The notes under the pieces were generated by a model that saw only the letters and a program-made list of their open reading frames with translations, made no database searches and was not told the origin of the DNA. A stretch of DNA of 64,000 bases from Candidatus Kryptoniota bacterium (lineage in GTDB: Bacteria > Bacteroidota > Ignavibacteria > Kryptoniales > JAKASW01): contig JAHECO010000004.1 in assembly GCA_024641705.1 (NCBI GenBank), positions 124,001-188,000 of the forward strand. The letters run 5' to 3'. This document shows, one piece after another, positions 23,469 to 24,898 of this stretch. Position numbers and translations under genes: made by a program. The first letter of the stretch is position 1. Every line of letters starts with the position of its first letter.

Positions 23469-23522
23469 ATGTGAGCGGCGCTTTTGAGGGAGTGGGGAAG
23501 GCGGTAAATGCCTGGCGAGTTA

Positions 23523-24149
23523 TTACTTTGTCTTGCGGAATGTCAGGACCACTTCACCGGCGACGAAGAACTGTCTGTCGTTGGGGGAGAAGCTGAGTAT
23601 CTGGTAAGACTTGTTGGAGGGTTTCAGGTGAATCTTCTCGTTGGCGAATTCGTAGAACCGGACGATGAGGACGCCGGCTGCGCTGCCGAGGACAAGAGAA
23701 TTCTGGTCGGGTTGGGGGACTCGTCTGCAGACGACGTAATCTCCTTTGAAAAGTCCGACGAAGTTCATGGCGTCGTCGGAGACTTTGACCGCGAACAGTT
23801 CGCCCTCCGGGAGGAGTTTCGCGTCGAAGTGGAGGACGTCGACGATGTTCGAGAATATGATCTCGCGGGATTCGATTCTCGACACGACGGGGATCGTGCG
23901 GACGGAGGGAGGCAGATCCGGATTTGTGAGTTCAGTTCTGGGGAGGTTGATACCGCGGGAACGCCCCGGTTCTCTTTCGATGTAACCTTTCTTTTCGAGG
24001 GCTTTCAGGAGATCGCTGACAGCTCTTGTAGAGCTTATCCCCATTTGTTCGCCGAGTTCACGGAAGGTCGGCGGTTTGGAGTGATCCTTGATATAGCGTC
24101 TTATGAATTCAAGCGCTTCACCTTGCCGTTTTGTCAACCCTCGAGCCAT
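23523..24149 (-). CDS. LexA-family repressor lacking the self-cleavage residues
   Basis: The N-terminal winged helix is plainly LexA: PPTFRELGEQMGISSTRAVSDLLKALEKKGYIERE (about 27-60). The C-terminal S24-like fold is also kept (FAVKVSDDAMNFVGLFKGDYVVC, RFYEFANEKIHLKPSN, FFVAGEVV). However, the catalytic Ser (S119 in E. coli) is Ala127, the catalytic Lys (K156) is Val163, and the Ala-Gly cleavage site is replaced by Glu-Ser-Arg (93-95). RecA-stimulated autolysis should therefore be impossible. It may be a constitutive repressor or respond to another signal, as reported for some cyanobacterial LexA proteins. It diverges from mraZ, 290 bp apart, so it could bind that shared region. Confidence 0.88.
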   Translation of the reverse strand: MARGLTKRQGEALEFIRRYIKDHSKPPTFRELGEQMGISSTRAVSDLLKALEKKGYIEREPGRSRGINLPRTELTNPDLPPSVRTIPVVSRIESREIIFSNIVDVLHFDAKLLPEGELFAVKVSDDAMNFVGLFKGDYVVCRRVPQPDQNSLVLGSAAGVLIVRFYEFANEKIHLKPSNKSYQILSFSPNDRQFFVAGEVVLTFRKTK

Positions 24150-24315
24150 TACGATCTAAATTACACAACACAAGTTTAGGTGTCAAGAAAGAACCCAAAC
24201 TTTTGTTTACCCTGTTTACTACAGAGATTATAACGGCATCTTATGTGAAAAGTAGTCTAAAATTCTGCTGATTTTGTCGGGTTTTGATGGTGGGGAAAAA
24301 GGGTGAAAATAGTGC

Positions 24316-24343
24316 TTGACTTTTGGAGCCCGTTGGTTAAATT
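24316..24343 (+). promoter_or_regulatory. probable dcw promoter upstream of mraZ
   Basis: TTGACT (24316-24321), a 16-bp spacer and TAAATT (24338-24343). The MraZ-type repeats begin 10 bp further on, where a repressor would block initiation. Confidence 0.55.
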
Positions 24344-24353
24344 TCCAACGTGG

Positions 24354-24387
24354 TGGGGAAAAGTGGGGAAGTTCCCAGCTTTTCCCA
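24354..24387 (+). promoter_or_regulatory. MraZ box: four TGGG half-sites at 10-bp spacing
   Basis: TGGGG begins at 24354 and 24364, and the inverted form CCCA begins at 24374 and 24384, all exactly 10 bp apart. Known MraZ operators are TGGGN repeats separated by 5 nt in front of mraZ. A further TGGGG at 24291 followed by GGGT is a weaker copy upstream of the promoter. mraZ starts 53 bp downstream, so this is likely its autoregulatory site. The inverted orientation of the last two half-sites is unusual. Confidence 0.75.
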
Positions 24388-24439: not shown

Positions 24440-24898
24440 ATGTCGTCATTCAAAGGACGCTACGAATACGTTTTAGACTCCAAGGGAAGGCTCAGCATCC
24501 CCGCAAAGCTGCGAAAAAGCCTCTCTTCCGAAGCTCATGACACATTTGTCGTGACGCGCGGAGTCGAAAAATGCCTCTACGTTTACCCCCTCGACGAATG
24601 GCGGCGACTTGAAGAAAAGCTCCGCTCCCTCAACCAATTTCTGGAGAAGCACAGATACTTCATCAGAACCCTCCTCATGTGGGCTTCGGAAGAATTCCCT
24701 CTGGACTCACAATCACGCATAACAATTCCCAAAAATCTGCTCGAATTCGCGGAGATCGAGAAAGAGGTCGTCATCATAGGCGCCCTGGAGAGAATCGAAC
24801 TCTGGAATCCTAAGACGTTCAATGAGTATTTGAACTCTCAACCCGAAAACTACGCCTCCGTTGTCGAACAAATCATGGCAGTTAATGTCAACAAATAA
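24440..24898 (+). CDS. mraZ: transcriptional regulator MraZ
   Basis: First gene of the division and cell-wall cluster, and the repressor of its own operon. Two SpoVT/AbrB-type repeats are visible: FKGRYEYVLDSKGRLSIPAKLRKSL with VTRGVEKCLYVYPLDEWRRLEEKL, and EFPLDSQSRITIPKNLLEFA with VVIIGALERIELWNPKTFNEYL. Both carry the D-x-x-x-R-(L/I)-x-IP core. The 152-residue length is normal. AGAGGAAG precedes the ATG. The gene is preceded by MraZ-like boxes, and its last base is the first of the rsmH ATG (TAATG). Confidence 0.95.
   Translation: MSSFKGRYEYVLDSKGRLSIPAKLRKSLSSEAHDTFVVTRGVEKCLYVYPLDEWRRLEEKLRSLNQFLEKHRYFIRTLLMWASEEFPLDSQSRITIPKNLLEFAEIEKEVVIIGALERIELWNPKTFNEYLNSQPENYASVVEQIMAVNVNK

Follow-up and report, generated by a model that had tools for sequence, protein, structure and literature searches.

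The window, a stretch of 64,000 nucleotides from a Candidatus Kryptoniota bacterium, encodes a 208-residue LexA paralog that has lost the residues needed for self-cleavage and lies back-to-back with mraZ, the first gene of the dcw cluster (Table 1). The reading that we favor, with reasonable though not full confidence, is that this protein is a LexA-derived repressor that is no longer a protease and serves as a dedicated, RecA-independent local regulator of its own promoter, possibly of mraZ and dcw output too.

A reading made from the sequence alone had described a LexA homolog devoid of the self-cleavage machinery, and the profile searches and alignments bear this out: the protein is a full-length LexA-family member without the Ala-Gly bond, the catalytic Ser, or the catalytic Lys. 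It matches the TIGR00498 LexA model with 127 bits (cutoff, 111), its N-terminal domain is LexA_DNA_bind (PF01726, 83.7 bits, residues 3 to 66), and its C-terminal domain has the Peptidase_S24 fold (PF00717, 46.8 bits), with an identity of ~26% to LexA structures. In alignment with cleavable LexAs, the scissile position, Ala-Gly or Cys-Gly in proteins that cut themselves, is Ser94-Arg95, the Ser position of the Ser-Lys dyad is Ala127, and the Lys position is Arg164. Two of the residue assignments made earlier, Glu93-Ser94-Arg95 and Ala127, agree with this alignment; Val163, named as the substitute for Lys, is one residue off and aligns with the residue preceding it. Since both the dyad and the scissile bond are missing, it follows from the sequence that a classical RecA response should be impossible for this protein. 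An AlphaFold2 model built on an 18-sequence family alignment (mean pLDDT, 87; pTM, 0.63) predicts an intact LexA fold, and its C-terminal domain superposes on LexA C-terminal domains with a TMt of ~0.8, suggesting that the dimerizing domain is intact and that only the chemistry is gone. The Asp125-Arg164 pair probably replaces the catalytic contact, a role in which the two side chains would touch each other. An antisense open reading frame of 223 amino acids (window positions 23508 to 24179, plus strand) covers the entire lexA gene and is probably a mechanical overlap.

Table 1. Features of the noncleavable lexA-mraZ locus in window coordinates
Feature	Position	Strand	Basis
Noncleavable LexA paralog (208 aa, stop included)	23523..24149	-	ORF; TIGR00498, PF01726, PF00717; orthologs
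Winged-helix DNA-binding domain, residues 1-70	23940..24149	-	PF01726 residues 3-66; AF2 helices 7-23, 29-36, 41-53
S24 (LexA C-terminal) domain, residues 83-208, catalytically dead by sequence	23526..23903	-	PF00717; fold match to LexA C-terminal domains
Ser94-Arg95 at the Ala-Gly cut site of cleavable LexA	23865..23870	-	Alignment
Asp125, invariant in clade; Gly in all cleavable LexAs compared	23775..23777	-	Alignment
Ala127 replacing catalytic Ser	23769..23771	-	Alignment
Arg164 replacing catalytic Lys	23658..23660	-	Alignment
Conserved lexA promoter block: -35 TTGACA (24181-24186), 17-bp spacer, -10 TAATTT (24158-24163)	24157..24188	-	Conservation in 11 genus genomes; consensus-only promoter reading
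Putative operator 1, AAC-N4-GTT, within lexA promoter spacer	24167..24176		Same position as TGAACATTTGTTCA in sister family
Putative operator 2, AAC-N4-GTT, 31 bp from the first	24198..24207		Kept in about half of genus genomes
Conserved ATAACGGC element (ATAACG(G)C) between lexA boxes and mraZ promoter	24227..24238		Conservation; not genome-unique
Conserved mraZ promoter-like block (TTGACT ... TTAAAT)	24316..24345	+	Consensus reading only
GTGGGG repeats upstream of mraZ gene, downstream of mraZ promoter	24350..24370	+	Conservation
mraZ, divergent partner, first gene of dcw cluster	24440..24898	+	TIGR00242 132 bits, PF02381

Arg-type sequences, in which Arg takes the place of the catalytic Lys, were sampled at 46 loci, which belong to the window's genus (f1), its sister family f2 (one member of which goes under the name Candidatus Thermokryptus), families f5, f8, f16, f24, and f27 of the same class, the Ignavibacteria MAG UBA7675, the MAG GSL.Bin8, and five families from a second class. 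Among the distinct rows finally retained, Asp125 is found in 45/45 Arg-type rows versus Gly in 99/99 Lys-type rows, and the Ser position is occupied by Ala, Gly, or Thr in all Arg-type rows but one, which retains Ser. In the clade member L217 (G143), position 127 is still Ser (APDSSM), while Arg stands in for Lys and Val-Thr occupies the Ala-Gly site. In quick trees without bootstrap, from which 26 columns around the three catalytic sites had been removed, a single branch separates the Arg-type rows from all others (SH-aLRT of 100 with 35 rows and 96 with 45 rows); D125 and R164, lying within one clade, count as one evolutionary event, not 45. Alignment of orthologs at the cleavage positions, a check proposed along with the earlier reading, revealed that the catalytic dyad is missing from the noncleavable gene in 13/13 genomes of the genus. 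The single clade, its invariant D125/R164, and a loss common to families and two classes all speak strongly for the settled change of mechanism that the sequence-only reading had supposed. One genus genome, G002, holds two noncleavable copies on different contigs (L010 on C51 and L032 on C26), which may represent a strain mixture in the bin (5% contamination). As judged from these sequences, the family is old and conserved in early-branching Bacteroidota, spanning at least two classes.

What does a LexA that cannot cut itself regulate? The gene is indeed divergent from mraZ, as had been claimed, and mraZ is followed by rsmH and then by more dcw-type genes. A divergent mraZ adjoins the noncleavable lexA in 34 of the 43 observable loci (3 of the 46 are cut by contig ends), distributed over several families and two classes: 11 loci of the genus, 7/7 of f2, 4/4 of f16, GSL.Bin8, and 11/11 of the other class. 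At the remaining nine loci (f5, f8, f24, f27, and UBA7675), mraZ does not adjoin lexA within the available flanks. On the trees, the association needs three to four changes if the three cut loci are treated as linked. The gene on the opposite side of the noncleavable lexA differs between lineages.

The region between the two genes carries conserved promoter elements and putative operators. The lexA promoter block is nearly invariant in 11 genomes of the genus, and the genus box AACACAAGTTTAG has its best match at the noncleavable lexA in every genome scanned, one-mismatch sites elsewhere in these genomes being at control level. The spacer in the sister family carries TGAACATTTGTTCA once per genome in 6/7 genomes and always at this site, and the seventh has one changed base; Gram-positive LexA boxes are built from the same half-sites, GAAC-N4-GTTC. 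Genomes of the other class show two GGTGAAA-N4-TTTCACC boxes, 32 bp apart, in 6/7 of those scanned, and at up to two mismatches this pattern occurs nowhere else in the six genomes except for one weak match; in the seventh, one of its boxes is seen at up to two mismatches, with none elsewhere. Overall, 13/14 genomes of two lineages have strong sites in the lexA-mraZ intergenic region and essentially nowhere else. Family f16 has two CTGAA-N6-TTCAG boxes, 41 bp apart, in 4/4 genomes, with a looser pattern that also matches elsewhere in the genome, above all in the larger genome. Across 35 intergenic regions (one genome counted twice), a full TGAA-N6-TTCA core, picked after looking, is present in 18/35 versus 0.6% of shuffles, and two sites of at least 7/8 are present in 17/35 versus 1.4% of shuffles, although the regions are related and so are not independent trials; the genus box has diverged from this core. 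The boxes are spaced by 22, 31, 32, 33, or 41 bp (54 bp with a weaker second box), each deviating from a multiple of 10.5 by no more than 1.5 bp, a post hoc observation that places tandem boxes on one helix face and suggests cooperative binding of two dimers. Between the boxes and the mraZ promoter, the ATAACG(G)C element lies 43 to 45 bp from the lexA -35 in the genus and f2 and is also found in lexA-mraZ regions of f16 (e.g., L088, L215, and L216 across f2 and f16). The GTGGGG repeats nearer to mraZ are, by analogy with known MraZ boxes, probable MraZ sites.

Motif scans for the noncleavable LexA box found no multigene DNA repair regulon and hardly any strong sites away from its own locus. 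The earlier suggestion that the protein couples some other signal to cell division or DNA repair divides into two parts. Conservation of the divergent arrangement and operators private to the locus strengthen the division link; the repair link gains no support, as no strong second site was found. Two candidate regulon signals were discarded in the course of the scans: a set drawn from a relaxed CTGAACATTTGTTCAA scan with up to 3 mismatches, which chance matches swamp, and ATAACGGCGTTAT, which is not genome-unique and has counts resembling those of controls.

These observations are consistent with a simple scheme, in which winged-helix dimers would occupy a single palindromic box, or two of them, between lexA and mraZ. 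Occupancy of the first box, which overlaps the lexA promoter, would bring about autorepression and hold the protein's own level steady. Tandem boxes on one helix face would allow two dimers to bind cooperatively, perhaps via the retained S24 domain. Through the shared region, the protein may also tune the divergent promoter of mraZ, where the dcw cluster begins, and release would come by dilution, a ligand, a partner, or another protease instead of RecA. Since the boxes are nearer to lexA than to mraZ, the protein may exert no control over mraZ at all. The alternative to be taken most seriously, although we consider it unlikely, is a pure autoregulator that leaves mraZ unaffected, its place in the genome being kept merely by the stability of the dcw region, with its true targets elsewhere or at weak sites. 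In its favor, the boxes overlap the lexA promoter and lie >100 bp from the mraZ promoter, and nine clade members have no adjacent mraZ; against it, the pairing with mraZ persists in two classes although the other neighbor of lexA changes from lineage to lineage, and strong sites elsewhere are missing from the scans. Returning to the local regulator that we favor, an old and conserved family, its usual pairing with mraZ, and an action seemingly exerted mainly at one spot imply that the signal it answers is probably other than DNA damage. A bolder version, which we offer only tentatively, is that an ancient nonproteolytic LexA branch of at least two Bacteroidota classes is now a dedicated regulator of mraZ, and hence of the division and cell wall cluster, acting cooperatively on tandem, helically phased boxes in response to a non-DNA-damage signal, perhaps sensed at the remodeled D125-R164 pocket.

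Another question is how the noncleavable form relates to ordinary LexA. The search for a second, cleavable LexA that the sequence-only reading had recommended was positive: the window's genome also encodes L002, which has Ala-Gly, Ser, and Lys, adjoins dinB, and is only ~33% identical to the noncleavable copy. Both forms are present in 13/13 genus genomes examined, the window's own included. The box of the cleavable LexA, TAGTAGA-N6-TCTACTA, is unrelated to that of the noncleavable copy and matches the window's genome perfectly only once, in the lexA-dinB promoter; two weaker sites were inspected and show no clear SOS gene. A third LexA-like gene, absent from the window's genome, was found in 6/13 genus genomes (L039, L040, L041, L043, L045, and L050), with Gly-Gly or Ala-Gly, Ser and Lys kept, and palindromes of the GTATAC-N4-GTATAC type near its start. 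Families f40, f49, f51, and f53 have, besides the noncleavable form, a full-length LexA with Ala-Gly, Ser, and Lys. In the sister family, 2/7 genomes (L051 in G018 and L056 in G019) encode a cleavable LexA with a UmuD-like gene after it, the former also with a Y-family polymerase alongside, and a LexA model search found no cleavable LexA in the other 5/7 (93 to 98% complete). The noncleavable copy is the only LexA-model match in 13 genomes (five of f2, G044, G143, G171, G181, and four of f30), and in G131 and G199 the model adds just a shorter UmuD-like match.

The coexistence of both LexAs in 13/13 genus genomes, together with the retained dimerizing domain, could point to a dominant modulator of the cleavable LexA, which would limit SOS induction through mixed dimers or as an uncleavable competitor for its boxes. 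The two proteins have different operators and only ~33% identity, and 13 genomes contain the noncleavable form without a cleavable full-length LexA, all of which make such a role quite improbable. Slightly less probable still is a regulator that continues to answer DNA damage and is inactivated in trans by a separate protease or a RecA-dependent partner. Some genomes do lack a cleavable LexA, and DdrO-like repressors are known to be cut by a separate protease (PMC8072749), but no multigene regulon of the noncleavable box was found and no recognizable protease gene adjoins lexA in the window. Finally, the loss of all three catalytic elements might be taken for a decaying relic or an assembly error, an explanation with almost no chance of being right given the 46 loci, the invariant D125/R164, the conserved promoter, and a dN/dS of ~0.03 among genus copies, a rough figure because dS is near saturation; clade-wide conservation and strong purifying selection rule out sequencing error and decay.

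The noncleavable paralog can be set against several known systems. It shares with canonical LexA (TIGR00498; PF01726 plus PF00717; Escherichia coli, Bacillus subtilis, and L002) the winged-helix domain, the linker, the S24 domain, and a palindromic operator in its own promoter but lacks Ala-Gly, Ser, and Lys and bears the Asp125-Arg164 signature; compared to L002, it has a different box, no SOS regulon that we could find, and mraZ instead of dinB as its partner. In phage CI-type repressors, the S24 domain can enable dimers to bind cooperatively at spaced operators; their N-terminal domain differs from that of the window protein, for which box spacing suggests cooperativity. LexA without cleavage is already known in general from Synechocystis sp. 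PCC 6803, whose LexA, without the Ala-Gly site and the catalytic Ser, has been suggested to act outside SOS (PMC4759255). As compared by description, the window protein has the same losses, but the Synechocystis protein reportedly affects many genes of other processes, whereas here the strong sites cluster in the lexA-mraZ region alone. Ala-Gly, Ser, and Lys are all present in two other cyanobacterial LexAs, which fall outside the clade. The noncanonical LexA of Bacteroidetes, an S24-family repressor of the same phylum, has a CI-like N-terminal domain and keeps its cleavage residues (PMC8565304), while the window protein has a LexA_DNA_bind domain and has lost them. Leptospira LexA2 resembles the window protein in being an additional LexA whose own promoter carries an operator of another type, but its Ser-Lys dyad and a Cys-Gly bond are retained, and the protein is lost after UV-C (PMC3789691). 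A link between LexA and mraZ has a precedent in B. subtilis LexA, which binds a site upstream of a human gut metagenome mraZ in EMSA (PMC3998124); that case involves an ordinary cleavable LexA acting in trans, unlike the noncleavable paralog encoded back-to-back with mraZ here.

In the open-access literature, to which our search was confined, no description of the clade, the D-R signature, or the mraZ pairing was found, nor anything relevant on LexA with Kryptonia or on a LexA divergent from mraZ. LexA is usually read as a marker of the SOS response. Noncleavable copies from f1, f2, f5, and f8, among others, exceed the NCBI equivalog cutoff, so automatic annotation would call them LexA, and since the noncleavable form is the sole LexA-model match in 13 genomes, LexA-controlled SOS is probably overpredicted there. 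Thanks to its D-R signature, the family can readily be recognized and reannotated. If the mraZ link is true, it would mean that a DNA damage repressor has become a permanent regulator of the division and cell wall cluster, whose control is poorly understood, and the family would provide a natural experiment on S24 domain function in the absence of proteolysis.
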